In this document: positions 6,866-13,933 of the stretch, in pieces
How positions within the stretch are numbered: the first letter of the stretch is position 1
How the letters are laid out: every line of letters begins with the position of its first letter
NCBI RefSeq assembly: GCF_003363715.1
Contig: NZ_QREV01000028.1
Location: forward strand, 1-61,933
Length of the DNA stretch: 61,933 bases
Origin: Parabacteroides acidifaciens
GTDB taxonomy: Bacteria > Bacteroidota > Bacteroidia > Bacteroidales > Tannerellaceae
Direction: 5' to 3'
Position numbers and translations under genes: made by a program
The notes under the pieces: model-generated
The model's input: only the letters and a program-made list of their open reading frames with translations
What the model was told of the DNA's origin: nothing
Databases searched by the model: none

Positions 6866-6888
6866 TGTCAGTATTTTGTAGTATGACA
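6866..6888 (+). promoter_or_regulatory. Candidate control site of the rclC-msrAB operon
   Basis: TGTCA (6866-6870) and TGACA (6884-6888) form an inverted repeat around AGTATTTTGTAG. The core resembles AGTATCTTTGTA upstream of the sigma gene (9739-9750). It does not fit TAnnTTTG exactly, so it may be read by another sigma factor, perhaps the one at 9820. Confidence 0.35.
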
Positions 6889-6945
6889 GACTAACCTAAC
6901 AAAAGAAGTAAAACAACGAAATTACAAACTAACAAGAAAGAGAAC

Positions 6946-7401
6946 ATGAAATCAATTATCAATTACATCGTCACCCCGTTTCCACAACTTGCACGCCTTG
7001 GGTATTATATATCGCTTTTTGGTATTGTGTTGATTATGCTGTGGATCGGCTTTTTCAAATTTACACCGACTGAGGCGGCCGGTATCAAGCCTTTGGTTGA
7101 AAATCATTTTTTACTGTTTTGGCTATATGACGTATTAAGCGTACAGCAGGTCTCCAATCTTTTCGGTGTGATCGAGATTACAACAGGACTTCTGTTGCTT
7201 TTCAGTCTAAAGTATGATGCATTGAGGCCCTTTGCAGCATTCTGCCTTATCGCAACATTCCTGATAACATTCAGTTTCCTGTTTACGACTCCCGGAATGT
7301 GGAATACGGTAGATGGCGTTCCGATTACAAATTTTATGATCTTAAAAGACATCCCAATGTTAGGGTTAGGGTTTACTTACTTAAAAACGAAAGACGTATG
7401 A
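6946..7401 (+). CDS. DUF417/YkgB-family inner membrane protein, RclC-like
   Basis: A 151-aa protein with four hydrophobic segments (about 19-37, 65-88, 92-112 and 130-146) and the family signature of YkgB/RclC, including FxxTPGxW in the second half. E. coli RclC belongs to the reactive-chlorine resistance operon rclABC. Its molecular role is not established. Here its stop overlaps the start of msrAB by 4 nt (ATGA), so the two are translationally coupled. That pairing with methionine sulfoxide repair supports a role in oxidant or hypochlorous acid stress. Confidence 0.85.
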
Positions 7402-8468
7402 AAAATGTTATTCTAATCATCGCTTTGTTCATATCCGGAGGATTGGCAACAGCACAAGAAACAATGAGCGGACAGCTCTCTAAAAATACAAACATGAGTG
7501 ACGTAAAAGAAATTTATTTTGCAGGCGGATGTTTCTGGGGTACAGAACATTTCATAAAACAGATTAATGGCGTAGTCAATACGCAAGTGGGCTATGCAAA
7601 TGGAAAAACGGATGTACAGAATCCGACTTACGAGCAGGTTTGCAATGATAATATCGGTTTTGCCGAAACAGTAAAAGTCGGTTACAATCCGCAGCAGGCC
7701 GATTTGAACTTTCTGATAGATCTGTTCTTCAAAACGATAGACCCGACAAGCCTTAACCGGCAGGGGAACGACAAAGGAGCACAATACCGGACAGGCATTT
7801 ATTACACAGATAAAGCTGATTTACCGGTTATCAAACAGGCTGTGGAAGCCCTGGCCAAACAATATACCAAACCGGTTGTCGTAGAAGTCGAACCGCTGAG
7901 GAATTTCTTTCCGGCAGAAGATTATCATCAGGATTATCTGGACAAACATCCGAACGGTTATTGCCATATCAGCCCTGAATTGTTCGACATGGCCAAGAAA
8001 GCAGCTTTCTCGCCTCAAAAGATATATCAAAAACCGGATGACGAGACATTACGTTCCCGGTTGACAGCCGAACAATACGCCGTAACACAAAAGAATGCAA
8101 CGGAAAGAGCTTTCCGGAACGAATATTGGAATGAAAAACGCGAAGGTTTATATGTCGATATAACTACAGGTGAACCTTTATTCATCTCGACCGATAAATT
8201 CGACTCCGGTTGTGGTTGGCCCAGTTTTTCAAAACCCATAGATAAGAGCCTGGTAATGAAAAAGACAGATAATTCCCATGGTATGCAGCGTATTGAAGTG
8301 CGCAGCAAAACCGGAGATGCACATCTGGGACATGTGTTCAATGACGGTCCGACCGATAAAGGCGGATTGCGCTACTGCATCAACAGCGCATCACTCCGGT
8401 TTATCCCGAAAGACAGGATGAAAGCCGAAGGATACGCCGATTATATTCCACTTCTGGAAAAGAAATAA
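7398..8468 (+). CDS. msrAB: Exported methionine sulfoxide reductase MsrA-MsrB fusion
   Basis: A 356-aa bifunctional enzyme that reduces both S and R forms of methionine sulfoxide. A signal peptide (about 1-20, ending LATAQ) places it in the periplasm. The MsrA domain (about 36-195) has its catalytic cysteine C45 in GGCFWG. The MsrB domain (about 220-345) has catalytic C327 in LRYCINS and a second cysteine in SGCGWPSF. The zinc-binding CxxC pairs of some MsrB proteins are absent. The ATG at 7398 is chosen because it overlaps the rclC stop as ATGA and starts a signal peptide. An earlier in-frame start at 7299 would lie inside the preceding gene. Reducing power probably comes from a periplasmic thioredoxin (inference). 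Confidence 0.95.
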
Positions 8469-8507
8469 AGAATTTTTATTATACAAACAATTTAATAACA
8501 GACGAAT

Positions 8508-9734
8508 ATGAAAAAGTATTTATTAGCAGCAACAATGTTTGCATTGGTTTCAACAGCATTTGTTTCATGCAGTGATGAGGATGAAAAGGACATGCCGGGA
8601 CTTGCTTCTTCGGTAATCTCTTTTGAGAATGTATTGGAACCTAAAGATTTTGTAGAGAGCGGAACATTTGTAGGAATGGGAAGTGAAGATATTAACGCGC
8701 CTGTGGTATTACCGGGACAGAGTATCCGCTTTACATTCCATGCAGGTAAAGGACAGGCATTGATGTTTGCCACGATGTACGGAGCATCGAAAGACTGGTT
8801 TTTCGCACCAGAGAATCCGGGCCTACAACTTTATAATAATGACGGTGTGCCTATGACGGGAGATGTTTCTTCGCAAATCAAACTATGGGATAACGGGACG
8901 AAAGCCGGAATGACTGATGAGAAAGAAGATGTCGGCATTATGATGGTTCCTGATATCGACGCTTCGAAGCTGATGAAGCTGGAGCTGAATTATATGGCCA
9001 GTTCTTCTGAATTTGAGTTGACTATCACCAACACCTCTGGTGGCAGTGATAACGAGACCCCTTTTTCACCGGGTGTATGGGCAGTTTCGAATGTATTCAA
9101 CGGGGAACTTCTGAACGGGATGCCTTTTTATGAAGCCGGAGCAAAATCGAATGCAGAAATAACAGCGATTGCACAAATGGGCGACAATTCTCTTTTAGCG
9201 GAAAAGATTTCTGCCAACACAGGCATCATCACAGGCATTTCTCCAGCCATAGTTGTAGTCTATACGGGAGACGTCAACCCAATCTATGAAGCAGGAAAGA
9301 AAGATGCCGGAATAGGTCTGGCTAACCTTGCGCAGAAGGGTGATGCATCAGCCTTGAAGGCTTCATTGGAAAAGATGCCTGATGTAAGAATGGTCTATGT
9401 TGCCGGCGATGCTCCGGTAGCACCGGGTGAAAAAGTGGAAATAGAGTTTGAAGCAACCGAAGGTGACCATATCGCCTATGCGACCATGTTTGGTTATTCC
9501 AATGACTGGTTTTATGCAAATGAAGCCATGATTCCTGCTAATTTCAAAGGTGACATTACGGGTAAGACTGCTCTTTTTGATGACGGAACAGCTGTTAGCC
9601 AATATCCAGGAGCCGGAAATGCACAGGGACTTTTCATCGGAATGCCGGAAAAAGAGGACGCATCTATTATGAAAGTAGATGATATGTTCCCGGTTCCGAC
9701 AATAAATAATGTTTTGAAGGTAGTTATCCGATAA
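8508..9734 (+). CDS. Spondin-domain lipoprotein, methionine-rich
   Basis: A 408-aa lipoprotein: the signal ends FVSC with lipobox cysteine near residue 21, followed by SDEDEKD. Two copies of a spondin-N-like unit follow the leader. The first carries ATMYGASKDWFFA and the second ATMFGYSNDWFYA, each with a nearby LxDxGT segment. I count 21 methionines (about 5 percent), roughly twice the usual share, several exposed in loop-like stretches. The gene follows msrAB by 39 bp on the same strand. It may be the partner substrate of MsrAB, soaking up oxidant at the envelope as methionine-rich peptides do in other bacteria (inference). Confidence 0.8.
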   Translation: MKKYLLAATMFALVSTAFVSCSDEDEKDMPGLASSVISFENVLEPKDFVESGTFVGMGSEDINAPVVLPGQSIRFTFHAGKGQALMFATMYGASKDWFFAPENPGLQLYNNDGVPMTGDVSSQIKLWDNGTKAGMTDEKEDVGIMMVPDIDASKLMKLELNYMASSSEFELTITNTSGGSDNETPFSPGVWAVSNVFNGELLNGMPFYEAGAKSNAEITAIAQMGDNSLLAEKISANTGIITGISPAIVVVYTGDVNPIYEAGKKDAGIGLANLAQKGDASALKASLEKMPDVRMVYVAGDAPVAPGEKVEIEFEATEGDHIAYATMFGYSNDWFYANEAMIPANFKGDITGKTALFDDGTAVSQYPGAGNAQGLFIGMPEKEDASIMKVDDMFPVPTINNVLKVVIR

Positions 9735-9740
9735 TAATAG

Positions 9741-9748
9741 TATCTTTG
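9741..9748 (+). promoter_or_regulatory. -7 box before the ECF sigma gene
   Basis: TATCTTTG matches TAnnTTTG. A TTTG lies at 9713-9716, 24 bp upstream, longer than normal. The sigma/anti-sigma pair may thus have a weak promoter of its own besides read-through from the operon. Confidence 0.45.
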
Positions 9749-9756
9749 TAACAGAA

Positions 9757-9797
9757 GAATCCAGGGCACAGGTGCTTGAGAATCATGCCCTGGATTC
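9757..9797 (+). promoter_or_regulatory. 12-bp hairpin in the leader of the sigma gene
   Basis: GAATCCAGGGCA (9757-9768) and TGCCCTGGATTC (9786-9797) are exact complements around a 17-nt loop. No T-run follows, so it is not a classic terminator. It could be an attenuator, a processing or stability element separating the lipoprotein message from the sigma gene, or a protein-binding palindrome. Confidence 0.6.
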
Positions 9798-9819
9798 ACG
9801 ACTTCTAATCAATAAACAA

Positions 9820-10410
9820 ATGCGACAAAACAGCATTTCCACATCGGCTTTCGAGTTGGAGAAATGGATAGACGACTACTCAAAAACACTCTTGGACAGA
9901 GCCTATTATTTGCTGTCCGATAAAGAAGATGCCAAAGATGTAGTTCAAGAAGTTTTTCTTTCGGCTTACAAAAGCAGAGAATCTTTTCAGGGGAAAAGTA
10001 CGCCATTAACTTGGCTGACAAGCATATTGCAACATAAAATCGCCGATATATACAAAAAGCGGTATAACGGGAACTCCCAATCATTATCTTTCGAGACTTT
10101 TTTTGACAAACACGGTGAATGGATCGAGCCAGACGTGGCGGACCCTTGGGAGGAGGACGAGTTTGCAGTAAGTACACTATTAAATAATGACAGTTTCTAT
10201 GAGGTATTCAATCAATGTCTTGGGAATCTGCCCCGACAATGGCTGATTGTCGTCAACAAGTGTTATCTTCAGGAACAAAAAGCGGTGGAAATATGCCGCG
10301 AACTAAACCTGTCGACTGCCAATTACTGGAAGCTATTGCAGCGTAGCCGTCTTCAGTTAAGAAAGTGCCTCGATATTCACTGGTTTAAATTAGGAGGTCA
10401 AAATGCTTAA
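9820..10410 (+). CDS. ECF-type RNA polymerase sigma factor
   Basis: A 196-aa sigma-70-family protein. Region 2 is clear (DRAYYLLSDKEDAKDVVQEVFLSAY, then TWLTSILQHKIAD). Region 4 is at LPRQWLIVVNKCYLQEQKAVEICRELNLSTANYWKLLQRSR. I chose MRQNSIS at 9820. The longer frame from 9772 starts inside the 9757-9797 hairpin. Its last 8 bases overlap the next gene, a zinc-type anti-sigma factor, the usual arrangement. It probably drives the rclC/msrAB/spondin genes just upstream, although its target promoter is not proven. Confidence 0.9.
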   Translation: MRQNSISTSAFELEKWIDDYSKTLLDRAYYLLSDKEDAKDVVQEVFLSAYKSRESFQGKSTPLTWLTSILQHKIADIYKKRYNGNSQSLSFETFFDKHGEWIEPDVADPWEEDEFAVSTLLNNDSFYEVFNQCLGNLPRQWLIVVNKCYLQEQKAVEICRELNLSTANYWKLLQRSRLQLRKCLDIHWFKLGGQNA

Positions 10411-10678
10411 AGAGTTTATACATATATTTACGTTGTCATGCAAACAGGCAACCTACTTAATCGAAAAGCGTATCCATGTTCCCTTGTCGGTTACGGAAAG
10501 GATGCGTTTGGCTATCCACCTTTCACTCTGCCGGTTGTGTCGCGCATATAATACAAAAGCTGTCTTTTTAGACCGTTTGATGAAAAGGGGCAGGAAGAAA
10601 GAAGTTTGTAACTGCCGATTTGGAAAGGAAGAAGTGGAGCAGTTTAAAATGGACATAAAAGAGAAAATAAATGGGTGA
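10403..10678 (+). CDS. Zinc-binding anti-sigma factor (ZAS type), small
   Basis: A 91-aa protein overlapping the sigma gene by 8 nt. C13 and the motif H39-x3-C43-x2-C46 (HLSLCRLC) make up the HxxxCxxC zinc site of ZAS anti-sigma factors such as RsrA and ChrR. Two more cysteines (CNC, about 69-71) lie near the end. No membrane segment is seen, so it is cytoplasmic and could release the sigma factor when its thiols are oxidised, as RsrA does. Short for the family, it seems to consist of the sigma-binding domain alone. Confidence 0.82.
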   Translation: MLKEFIHIFTLSCKQATYLIEKRIHVPLSVTERMRLAIHLSLCRLCRAYNTKAVFLDRLMKRGRKKEVCNCRFGKEEVEQFKMDIKEKING

Positions 10679-10727: not shown

Positions 10728-10815
10728 GGAGAGATGCTCGAGTGGTTGAAGAGGCACGCCTGGAAAGCGTGTAAACCCCTAAAGGGTTTCGCGGGTTCGA
10801 ATCCCGCTCTCTCCG
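10728..10815 (+). tRNA. tRNA-Ser(GGA)
   Basis: Acceptor stem GGAGAGA (10728-10734) pairs with TCTCTCC (10808-10814), discriminator G10815. The anticodon stem CACGC/GCGTG encloses a loop with GGA at 10762-10764. A long variable arm and the T-loop GGTTCGAATCC mark a class II serine tRNA. No 3' CCA is encoded. Confidence 0.97.
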
Positions 10816-11026
10816 CTGAACCGGCTGGACAAAATAAGACAACAAAAAGACTGTAAAAGACATAGTTTCGTTACTATATCTTACCTATTCCCTACCGGAC
10901 AAAAACGGTAACGATTTGTCCCGAAATGACCGTAGAAAGTCCGAATTCACCTACCGCCTATCTATCTCACATTTAACAAGTTATTAGTATTCACAGCAAT
11001 TGCTTTGTAAAAAGAAAAATTATATC

Positions 11027-11149: not shown

Positions 11150-11152
11150 TTA

Positions 11153-11410
11153 TGTATTGGCGAAAGCTACACGTGTACGTGCTTCCAAATCAGAACCGTC
11201 CTTAACGGCACGGGGCAGATATTCAGTAATGTTGCGGATAGCTTCACGTGCATTCATATCGCTGGCAAGGTTTGCGCTGGCGGCAATGAAGCCCTCTACG
11301 CTATGGAACAATGTATCAAATCCCTGAAAGGCAGTAAACAGTGGAGGCACGGAAAGCATCAGTTCTGCATCGACTACAGCAAGACATGGAAATAATGCCG
11401 GGTGCATGAT
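11153..11410 (-). pseudogene. Internal fragment of an iron-containing alcohol dehydrogenase
   Basis: About 85 residues align with the middle of the intact enzyme at 1631-2800: VVDAELMLSVPPLFTAFQGFD matches IVDPDLMMTIPSQFTAYQGMD, and EYLPRAVKDGSDLEAR matches KYLPLAVKDGSDKEAR. The ligands D and H of QGFDTLFH remain, but the N-terminal nucleotide domain and the C-terminal H-x10-H ligands are gone. It ends in a stop after FANT. It is not functional. Confidence 0.85.
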
Positions 11411-11430
11411 AAATGTGGGTGGGGATGTAC

Positions 11431-11553
11431 TGATTGTAATCCATATTCGTTTCCATTTATAACAAAGCATGGTTTGACTTCCGGCATTCCATAATCACGG
11501 GTGAAATCTTCATTAAATGTAGTGTGTAGCACTGTGATTTTCACCTTTTTCAT
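11431..11553 (-). pseudogene. N-terminal fragment resembling a TIGR04076-type protein
   Basis: From the ATG at 11553 about 41 residues read MKKVKITVLHTTFNEDF then PEVKPCFVINGNEYG, the typical beginning of small TIGR04076 proteins. The frame then runs out of similarity, and dehydrogenase sequence begins in another frame near 11410. A deletion joined the two. Family call from memory of the N-terminal pattern. Confidence 0.55.
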
Positions 11554-11573: not shown

Positions 11574-13052
11574 TTAATACCAGTCATGCTTCTCGTTCCG
11601 GTCGAGTGCGGCGATTTGCGACATTTCTTCATCCGTCAGTTCAAAATCGAAAATGGATATATTTTCTTTGATATGGTCGGGGTTACTTGAACCGGGAATG
11701 ACAACCACACCCCTTTGTAAATCCCAACGTAGAATGACCTGTGCCGAAGACTTGCCGTGAGCGTTTGCAATTTTGCTAATGGTTTCATTACCTAACAAAG
11801 CTGCCGTATGACCTCTGCCTCCAAGTGGATACCATGCTTCTACTACAATGCCTTGACTGTGCATATATTCGACAATTCCTTTTTCTTGATAATAAGGATG
11901 TATTTCATTTTGTACTAATACAGGCTTAATGTTTACTTGTGGCAGAAACTCCGTCATTTCCTTTATGTAATAATTCGATAATCCGATGGAGCGAATCTTG
12001 CCCTGCGCCACATATTTTTCCATTGCTTTATATGCTTTTACATCGTCAGTTCCCGGATGGTGTAACAGCATCAAGTCAATATAACCGATGTCGAGCTTAC
12101 GCAAGCATTCTTCTATTGCTGCTTCGGGATTGCTGAATTGATTAGGATAAAGTTTGGTTGCCACGAAGATTTCTTCACGTGGCACGCCCGATTCACGAAC
12201 GCCTTGTCCCACTTCTTCTTCATTGTCATACATATGTGCCGTATCAATTTTGCGGAAGCCGGAAGCAAGAGCCGCCTTGACGGAATTTACACAGACATCA
12301 CCATGCAGACTGTATGTGCCCAGCCCAACGATGGGCATATCATATCCACTGCTAAGTCTTACGGTAGGTGCTTTCCCATTTTCACCTTTCGAGAGGTTGA
12401 ACACGCCTACATTGCTATTTTGATTCAAATTCAAATTCATACTTTCAATCCAATCTTTAATTGTTCCTGCTGATTCATTTCCATTAAAACGTTTTCCTTT
12501 TTTCCATGCGGCTTTCTCTGCCGATTCGTGCAAATCTATATCGCTTGAACCGATGCCACTGGAATGTGAAGTACAGAACGGCACGATGGTTTTGCCCGAT
12601 AGATTTAGGCTTTCAAGGAATGTATGGATTATTTTAGGAGCTTTTCCCCACCAAATAGGATAACCAAGAAAAACCACGTCATAGTCCGAAAAATTCTCGA
12701 TTTTACTGCTTATTGCCGGACGTGCAGCCGGGTCGTTCTGCTCACGGTTAGCACGGGACGAGGAATTGTTATAATTCAAGTCCTCACTTGTATAGGGCGT
12801 TTCGGGAACGATGCGATGAAGTGCTCCATCGGTAATTTCTGCAATTCTTTCCGCAATACCTTTCGTGGTATTGGTACAAGAGAAATAGACCACTAATGTG
12901 TGTCCGTTACCCGGTTGTGGTTCGGGTGTTGGCTCCGGTTCAGGAGCAGGTGTCGGTTCTTCCGTATTGGCTGGTTCTTCTGTAGGGCTGCAAGCAGCCG
13001 TAGCAAAAGATAATCCCGACAAAAGAATAAGGGATGATAACAACATATTCAT
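11574..13052 (-). CDS. Lipoprotein fusion of flavodoxin and aldo/keto reductase
   Basis: A 492-aa protein with three parts. Residues 1-21 form a lipoprotein-type signal (ATAAC, C21), followed by a Pro/Glu linker (about 25-48, PEPEPTPEPQPG). A flavodoxin domain spans about 50-206 (VVYFSCTNTTKGIAERIA at the FMN phosphate loop, FLGYPIWWGKAP). An aldo/keto reductase domain spans about 228-490, with tetrad D270, Y275, K300 and H331 or H332. Predicted to be anchored outside the cytoplasm, where NADPH is not expected. It follows the acetyltransferase by 4 bp and is the only oxidoreductase of this cluster that still looks intact. Either it uses another electron source or its signal is not used. Confidence 0.88.
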   Translation of the reverse strand: MNMLLSSLILLSGLSFATAACSPTEEPANTEEPTPAPEPEPTPEPQPGNGHTLVVYFSCTNTTKGIAERIAEITDGALHRIVPETPYTSEDLNYNNSSSRANREQNDPAARPAISSKIENFSDYDVVFLGYPIWWGKAPKIIHTFLESLNLSGKTIVPFCTSHSSGIGSSDIDLHESAEKAAWKKGKRFNGNESAGTIKDWIESMNLNLNQNSNVGVFNLSKGENGKAPTVRLSSGYDMPIVGLGTYSLHGDVCVNSVKAALASGFRKIDTAHMYDNEEEVGQGVRESGVPREEIFVATKLYPNQFSNPEAAIEECLRKLDIGYIDLMLLHHPGTDDVKAYKAMEKYVAQGKIRSIGLSNYYIKEMTEFLPQVNIKPVLVQNEIHPYYQEKGIVEYMHSQGIVVEAWYPLGGRGHTAALLGNETISKIANAHGKSSAQVILRWDLQRGVVVIPGSSNPDHIKENISIFDFELTDEEMSQIAALDRNEKHDWY

Positions 13053-13629: not shown

Positions 13630-13933
13630 TTTTTCAACGTACTCATGTCAATCACATAGCGGAACTTTACTTTTCCGTCCGAAACATTATGCCAAGCCTT
13701 ATCTGTTCGTCCCAAGCAGCGTGTAGGTCACTGTGACAGATACCTGCATAAAGGATTTCAATTTGAATGTCATTTTCTCCAATGGCATGACGGGTAAATT
13801 CGTAAGGTCGGAAAGTGTCTTTGGCTGAAAACATGGCAAATTCTCTTGCTGGAACACGTTCTTCACTCATTTGTGCAAAAGCTGTAGCTATACACGCCAG
13901 CCCTACAATCATTGTCATTACTGTACGTTTCAT
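13626..13933 (-). pseudogene. Exported zinc alcohol dehydrogenase with a large internal deletion
   Basis: The first 80 or so residues (signal peptide ending AFAQ, then GICHSDLHAAWDEQ) align with the start of the intact enzyme at 458-1600. The frame then leaves the family and stops at 13667. In another frame the sequence resumes with DGKVKFRYVIDMSTLKK and TGA at 13626-13628, matching the last residues of the intact enzyme (DGKVKFRYVINMETLK). About 280 codons, including the cofactor fold and most zinc ligands, are missing. The promoter and operators upstream still look complete. Confidence 0.9.

Follow-up and report, generated by a model that had tools for sequence, protein, structure and literature searches.

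Why should a small membrane protein, a methionine sulfoxide reductase, a lipoprotein with an F-spondin-type fold, a sigma factor and an anti-sigma factor be encoded side by side in Parabacteroides acidifaciens? The five genes lie on contig NZ_QREV01000028.1, of which we analyzed positions 1 to 61,933 (hereafter the window; 62 kb of a 5.1 Mb genome). A preliminary description of this DNA had seen in them a likely envelope oxidant-repair unit in which the lipoprotein scavenges oxidant through its methionines. We find that a common promoter, which is also present in relatives where the genes are scattered, precedes the genes for the three proteins outside the cytoplasm. This promoter and the five open reading frames, which span 6946–10678, are as follows:

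6866–6893, + strand: target-operon promoter of the extracytoplasmic function (ECF) type, −35 TGTCAG (6866–6871), −10 AGACTA (6888–6893), 14 of 16 consensus bases
6946–7401, + strand: inner-membrane protein of the DUF417 (RclC/RcrB) family, 151 amino acids, PF04224 at 93 bits
7398–8468, + strand: exported MsrA-MsrB fusion (MsrAB), 356 amino acids, complete PMSR and SelR domains, N terminus signal-peptide-like as read from the translation
8508–9734, + strand: lipoprotein with two F-spondin-type repeats, 408 amino acids, lipid cysteine at residue 21 followed by SDEDEKD
9820–10410, + strand: ECF sigma factor, 196 amino acids, TIGR02937 at 64.6 bits and region 2 at 49.9 bits
10403–10678, + strand: cytoplasmic anti-sigma factor of the zinc anti-sigma (ZAS) type, 91 amino acids, ligands C13, H39, C43 and C46, NF052368 at 47.5 bits

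The promoter consensus, TGTCAGGATT-N12-CGACTA, was derived from the gaps between the anti-sigma gene (zas) and the DUF417 gene (rclC) together with the regions upstream of lone spondin genes. The window site, TGTCAGTATT-N12-AGACTA, is the sole site with at least 13 of 16 matching bases within the 62 kb, and its first base is the coordinate at which the preliminary description began, although no promoter was named there. With a looser pattern, it is the only zero-mismatch match in the whole genome; one further match with a single mismatch, on contig C112, lies near unrelated genes and was rejected, the control having given two. Across 18 genomes, allowing at most one mismatch, we observed 23 matches in 15 genomes and none in the control, with 17 upstream of rclC or spondin, four within sigma genes and two before unrelated genes. 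An unbiased scan of 395 genomes of the phylum with the exact pattern returned seven matches in six genomes (reversed control 0 throughout), every one of which precedes a target: in five cases the site occupies the gap from zas to rclC-msrAB, and the other two stand upstream of spondin and of msrAB, respectively. A looser pattern, whose control was non-zero, was applied to 24 further genomes and gave 25 exact matches, and all 22 for which the locus was retrieved lie at rclC or spondin. At the threshold of at least 13 of 16 bases, a site is found at 27 of 27 first-target positions and at 39 of 41 lone spondin genes (the misses being L024 and L054); in one of the 27 loci, L091, the sole match before rclC is a site inside the sigma gene. 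In the 1,453,174 bases of 56 named Bacteroidota loci, there were 69 matches, of which 53 precede targets, 13 fall within sigma genes and three are elsewhere, with none in the control. Chryseobacterium genomes carry two sites, one before rclC-msrAB and the other, elsewhere in the genome, before spondin.

Because the common promoter precedes each of the three targets, including where they lie apart, the sequence comparison indicates that the rclC-like gene, msrAB and spondin are one regulon held together by an inherited promoter and not by adjacency alone. The opposing idea that the genes are mere neighbors without common control can draw on the rarity of the unit, which occurs in two of 38 genomes of the genus, and on the layout of its second half, where the sigma and anti-sigma genes have a candidate promoter of their own and a hairpin separates them from spondin:

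9741–9748, + strand: candidate housekeeping-type promoter of the sigma and anti-sigma genes, TATCTTTG, by sequence fit to TAnnTTTG
9757–9797, + strand: hairpin with a 12-pair stem in the gap from spondin to the sigma gene, z −5.0, with no T run after it

The motif TAnnTTTG is the consensus −7 box of Bacteroidota housekeeping promoters. The hairpin, which may be a terminator or a 5′ leader element, has counterparts of different stem sequence at the equivalent position in loci L052 (z −5.5) and L002 (z −5.2). Against the mere-neighbor idea, the promoter accompanies rclC, msrAB and spondin in different genera even where these genes are separated, and we regard the absence of any common control as very improbable. 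Autoregulation of the sigma gene through the same promoter was rejected, no site being found upstream of it in 18 loci, where the best matches reached 7–11 of 16 bases, the level of shuffled sequence.

The five same-strand genes of the preliminary description agree with the open reading frames and their family matches, and the overlaps it gave, of 4 nucleotides between the rclC-like gene and msrAB (7398–7401) and 8 nucleotides between the sigma and anti-sigma genes (10403–10410), hold when the codons are checked. Its RclC-type label holds in the sense of RclC-like, as the PF04224 score lies well above the gathering score of 27, and fails for RclC itself, with 53.6 bits to the equivalog model NF040476 against a cut-off of 275. 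A thiol relay from the DUF417 protein to MsrAB was rejected, since 11 relatives share no invariant cysteine. The MsrAB protein covers PMSR (1–153 of 153) and SelR (1–116 of 116) in a single chain and falls short of PRK14018, which describes MsrAB with an N-terminal extra domain (465.7 bits against a cut-off of 522; profile positions 191–517 of 521). The sigma factor passes the cut-offs of TIGR02937 (42.9) and Sigma70_r2 (24), lies below that of Sigma70_r4_2 (20.5 bits against 25.7) and is outside the TIGR02943 family (123.8 bits against a curated cut-off of 162.2).

The arrangement recurs in relatives. As PF06468 gave no match even in the window's own genome or in any control, spondin genes were sought with our own profile, A1, with at most four candidates scored per genome in the phylum search, and 57 loci bearing lipoprotein relatives were inspected without profiles; the 56 named loci are those left after exclusion of L058, a distant Chloracidobacterium locus. 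Consistent with the association proposed earlier and beyond what chance would give, 17 of the 56 have sigma and anti-sigma genes no more than a few kilobases from spondin, accompanied by a DUF417 gene in 14 of these and by msrAB in 11. The commonest order is sig-zas-rclC-msrAB-spondin (Elizabethkingia, Porphyromonas, Phocaeicola and Bergeyella); in the window, in L052 and, as far as its contig extends, in L002, the targets come first and sig-zas last. The operon lacks msrAB in Hoylesella, Segatella and one Prevotella, and most Chryseobacterium loci hold a lone spondin. A tRNA-associated insertion was rejected, as a scan of 14 related loci did not find the tRNA-Ser at 10728–10816. Three other loci are of separate interest. 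L091 (G039:C4, Elizabethkingia) is a second copy of the unit, sig-rclC-msrA, with no detectable anti-sigma gene. In L117 (5659–8111), a distant spondin (29%) is followed directly by a distant msrAB (42%) with no promoter of this type, an independent pairing. In L090 (3810–5855, − strand), from a Capnocytophaga metagenome-assembled genome (MAG), a perfect promoter match lies before a gene whose 302-residue product is exported, and next come genes for two membrane proteins, by eye resembling YeeE/YedE sulfur transporters; this is a possible extra member of the regulon.

The anti-sigma factor suggests how the regulon would be switched. Residues C13, H39, C43 and C46 are invariant in 13 sequences, and their Cys-x25-His-x3-Cys-x2-Cys spacing, that of the redox CHCC ZAS type, is identical to the spacing reported for RsrA and for NMB2145 of Neisseria meningitidis; the score to NF052368 is just short of the curated cut-off of 50. 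RsrA is described as sensing through a disulfide between its first cysteine and one of the last two, and ZAS proteins of the HHCC type, which lack the first cysteine, as insensitive to disulfide stress (both in the available part of PMC4960319). Because the ligand spacing is that of RsrA and the first cysteine is present, the protein is likely a redox switch. The EcfO-Reo system of Bacteroides and Phocaeicola (PMC13114119, from the portion available) was set aside because Reo is an envelope-spanning protein, which the ZAS protein, of 91 residues, is not.

Published systems, as far as the accessible portions of the reports describe them, share parts of this design. In Haemophilus influenzae, the ECF sigma factor RpoE2 and the small cytoplasmic ZAS protein HrsE lie near periplasmic MsrAB and control it in connection with hypochlorous acid (HOCl), and a gene for a DoxX-like membrane protein is also regulated; there, msrAB is separated from rpoE2 by a dmt transporter gene, and the passages at hand mention no spondin protein (PMC7907618). 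The N. meningitidis sigma-E/NMB2145 pair has MsrA/MsrB in its regulon, but its operon is autoregulated (PMC2893595), whereas the motif found here precedes sigma in none of the 18 loci. The Brucella BcrS-AbcS/BcrXQP system, homologous to the Azospira MrpX system, likewise sets a methionine-rich protein and a methionine sulfoxide reductase under an HOCl-induced ECF switch; it differs in its six-helix membrane DUF1109 anti-sigma factor, its MsrPQ-type reductase, its promoter (−35 TGTAAC, −10 GCGAAA) and its MXKDX repeat peptide, in place of which a folded F-spondin lipoprotein stands here (PMC8315932). What is new relative to the known ECF/ZAS control of MsrAB is the spondin surface lipoprotein.

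A plasmid cassette of Klebsiella and Escherichia bears on the signal. It encodes a BhsA-like (DUF1471) protein, a TetR-type regulator, a DUF417 protein, a CMD protein, a DM13 protein and a spondin-domain protein; in a Klebsiella pneumoniae plasmid (L216:4518–7729), an rcrARB-like cassette is joined by CMD, DM13 and a spondin-BhsA fusion. At least 80% of the cassette is present in 612 of 624 matching plasmid records. Its spondin part matches the window lipoprotein at 36% along 136 aligned residues, with a profile probability of 98%, and scores below the NCBIfam cut-off (25.4 against 40). The order of its first three genes is that of rcrA-rcrR-rcrB, the HOCl defense operon of uropathogenic Escherichia coli (UPEC), in which RcrB, a DUF417 protein, is described as the main protector against HOCl and as needed for the resistance of the UPEC strain (PMC9600549, in its available part). 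Unlike the window unit, rcrARB and the cassette have a TetR-type regulator, and the cassette has no MsrAB. By gene order and families only, a chromosomal three-gene operon in 731 E. coli records also appears to be rcrARB. Because of the shared gene order and the protection that RcrB gives against HOCl, we prefer reactive chlorine as the signal and infer that the unit responds to hypochlorite. A Haladaptatus (archaeal) plasmid (L217:4521–6654) carries a spondin-domain gene beside a gene labeled DM13 in its record, a label without an NCBIfam match.

Both a domain model and the fold, which is of animal type, place the lipoprotein among F-spondin domains: a sequence search of the PDB with profile A1 gave one marginal match (Spondin-2, E 0.98), and a second look at the Foldseek ranking settled the fold. 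Some of our literature searches listed no paper containing the word spondin, and one found no paper, a negative that extends to those searches only. The lipid cysteine lies in the context CSDEDEKD, a polar residue and then an acidic run, as in the lipoprotein export signal (LES) for the surface, given as SDDDD for Bacteroides fragilis in the available text of PMC5080379. Acidic residues at positions +2 to +9 average 2.86 per protein among 50 spondins, compared with 1.28 among 25 lipoproteins of other kinds. Judged from this signal, the lipoprotein is probably at the cell surface rather than in the periplasm.

Its methionine content, put earlier at about 5 percent, is indeed 21 of 408 residues (5.1%), or 19 of 388 (4.9%) in the mature protein. 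It is a folded protein and not a short MXKDX repeat peptide of the MrpX/BcrX type. Among 59 close orthologues (counted without L052, a MAG in which msrAB and spondin are each in two frames), the 56 with regulon evidence average 3.65% mature methionine (2.33–5.47), compared with 1.75, 1.78 and 2.58% in the three without it, whose genomes have no close sigma factor (one-sided rank test, p 0.003, uncorrected for kinship). The tree demands at least three changes of regulon label; L054 and L140 group as sisters to the branch of the window protein and L024 is separate, and therefore the label was probably lost twice. In 46 distant homologues the mean is 2.09% (0.70–4.61), with four at 3% or more, one of which, L142, comes from a genome that holds a related sigma factor. 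Methionine falls in variable columns in 36% of cases, as against 9–19% for Leu, Ile, Val and Phe. These data are consistent with selection for exposed methionine.

The same residues raise the question of whether the unit answers copper or another soft metal, the acidic, methionine-rich N terminus of the spondin binding Cu(I) at the surface and MsrAB repairing copper damage. Chryseobacterium spondins have runs such as CNDDDDMMMESS, the 56 regulon members have 8.0% methionine in their first 30 mature residues, compared with 2.0% in the 46 distant homologues, and the title of one paper ties the Caulobacter ECF sigma-F to heavy metals. The window protein, however, has a single methionine in its first 30 mature residues, no copper transporter, chaperone or oxidase gene is present among the five genes or ten Pfam-scanned neighbors and regulated genes, and the ZAS protein has redox-type ligands. 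We consider a copper response improbable.

A second use of the promoter motif appears inside the sigma genes of relatives. The region-4.2 codons of the recognition helix, for Cys/Ser-Gln-Glu-x4-x-Thr-Asn, read [T/A]GT CAG GA. ... NCG ACT A, in frame and at a constant position. At least 13 of 16 bases match in 37 of 44 distinct sigma genes and in 14 of the 20 clusters that share less than 78% nucleotide identity, for example in L008, L009, L028, L083, L204, L205 and L071; the equivalent position in the window is near 10303. Given the amino acids, synonymous codons agree with the motif in 74 cases where 42.2 would be expected (z 7.6), and 15 of the 20 clusters, compared with an expected 3.9, keep G as the third base of the eighth codon regardless of whether that codon encodes Thr, Ser, Pro or Ala. 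Among 166 codon columns, the three key columns rank 1st, 3rd and 10th in third-base bias, which some other columns also show. Across 17 Chryseobacterium genes, conservation of the motif's third bases is complete at four of five positions and 94% at the remaining one, with the spacer codons at 0.71–0.82, near the gene mean of 0.71. The site is absent from all eight unrelated ECF paralogues, and is lacking in the window sigma gene (best 9 of 16) and in L052 and L002, which share its swapped order; in these three, read-through from the target promoter could substitute for it. The internal site likely serves sigma-driven transcription of the anti-sigma gene just downstream, and we think it probable that it functions in the relatives. 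A precedent is Corynebacterium glutamicum, where the rshA promoter is reported to lie within sigH and to be SigH-dependent (PMC3489674, available part); that promoter is of another type, and the window lacks the internal site.

Taken together, the five genes likely constitute a small regulon of an ECF sigma factor, which protects the envelope and surface from agents that oxidize thiols and methionines; reactive chlorine species are the most likely of these. In the resting state, the sigma factor would be bound by the small cytoplasmic anti-sigma factor through the zinc site of the latter; as in RsrA, oxidation of C13 with C43 or C46 would expel zinc and free the sigma factor. The free sigma factor would then fire the promoter at 6866–6893, which is recognized by its conservation and presumably read by this sigma factor, to produce the three extracytoplasmic proteins. 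MsrAB, a known enzyme family, would reduce methionine sulfoxide in envelope proteins, the DUF417 protein would protect as its relative RcrB does against HOCl, and the F-spondin-fold lipoprotein, probably flipped to the surface, would be an induced shield whose extra methionines absorb oxidant. In the window, the sigma and anti-sigma genes follow the targets, behind the housekeeping-type promoter and the hairpin. The earlier interpretation stands as to one unit for extracytoplasmic methionine-oxidation repair under a sigma/ZAS switch, given the promoter, the ZAS ligands and the reports from Haemophilus and Neisseria that ECF/ZAS pairs control msrAB. The scavenger role of the spondin stands to a lesser degree: methionine is raised in regulon members and more frequent in variable columns, and that the extra methionines take oxidant hits is the weakest step, one we slightly doubt. 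The full proposal is tentative and unlikely to hold in every part: within a minimal ECF regulon that also includes MsrAB and the DUF417 protein, the spondin would act at the cell surface as a methionine shield induced against reactive chlorine, and in most relatives the recognition-helix codons, taken as DNA, would be the very promoter to which that helix binds, positioned to raise anti-sigma synthesis.

Several observations weigh against the main reading or its scavenger step. A surface spondin is out of the reach of periplasmic MsrAB, which does not fit with periplasmic recycling. Only five methionines of the window protein are well conserved, methionine is not enriched in predicted coil (nine of 19, with 54% coil overall), and a content near 5% is far below that of a methionine-repeat peptide. 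Nor does the content depend on an adjacent msrAB, being 3.43% with it, 3.90% with sigma and without msrAB, and 3.57% where unlinked; the distant spondins L143, L159 and L141 reach 3.4–4.6% without sigma evidence (sigma having been tested in the genomes of L143 and L159). Spondin and sigma occur without adjacent msrAB in Hoylesella, Segatella, Prevotella, Tannerella and Riemerella loci. In the 18-genome scan, two of the 19 matches outside sigma genes precede unrelated genes (L088 and L090), and genome G293 has msrAB with a perfect promoter but no sigma factor found at E 1e-15. Finally, the N. meningitidis pair, despite its equal Cys/His spacing, is reported as unresponsive to H2O2, diamide and singlet oxygen (PMC2893595, in the part available). 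Within the same regulon, the spondin could instead be a client, or serve at the surface in a structural or adhesive role, induced to reseal or cover damage there, its extra methionines being neutral. The few conserved methionines, the surface-type signal and the occurrence without adjacent msrAB agree with this, as do the conserved DWFF/DWFY and D-x-G-T segments, which belong to the fold and not to methionine, and the titles of structures that describe F-spondin/mindin domains as Ca-binding, C2-like extracellular domains. The higher methionine content of the regulon members, relative to both the three sigma-less orthologues and the distant homologues, argues against it, and we rate this alternative as a serious contender that we nevertheless think somewhat unlikely.

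Downstream of the unit, on the − strand of the window, two short open reading frames look like remnants, one an Fe-alcohol dehydrogenase C-terminal piece by Pfam (11150–11470) and the other an alcohol-dehydrogenase-like N-terminal piece by eye (13667–13933), and 11574–13052 encodes an exported-looking flavodoxin/aldo-keto reductase fusion of 492 residues.

Under the preferred reading, a regulon for envelope oxidant defense, Bacteroidota would gain a defined, compact envelope-oxidant regulon with a searchable and immediately testable promoter, and bacterial F-spondin proteins a first functional setting. If the recognition-helix promoter works, selection would clearly act on one stretch of DNA in two capacities, as the code for a DNA-binding helix and as the target to which the helix binds. 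Together with the plasmid DUF417-DM13-spondin cassette, the unit would tie the spondin fold to reactive-chlorine defense in two phyla.

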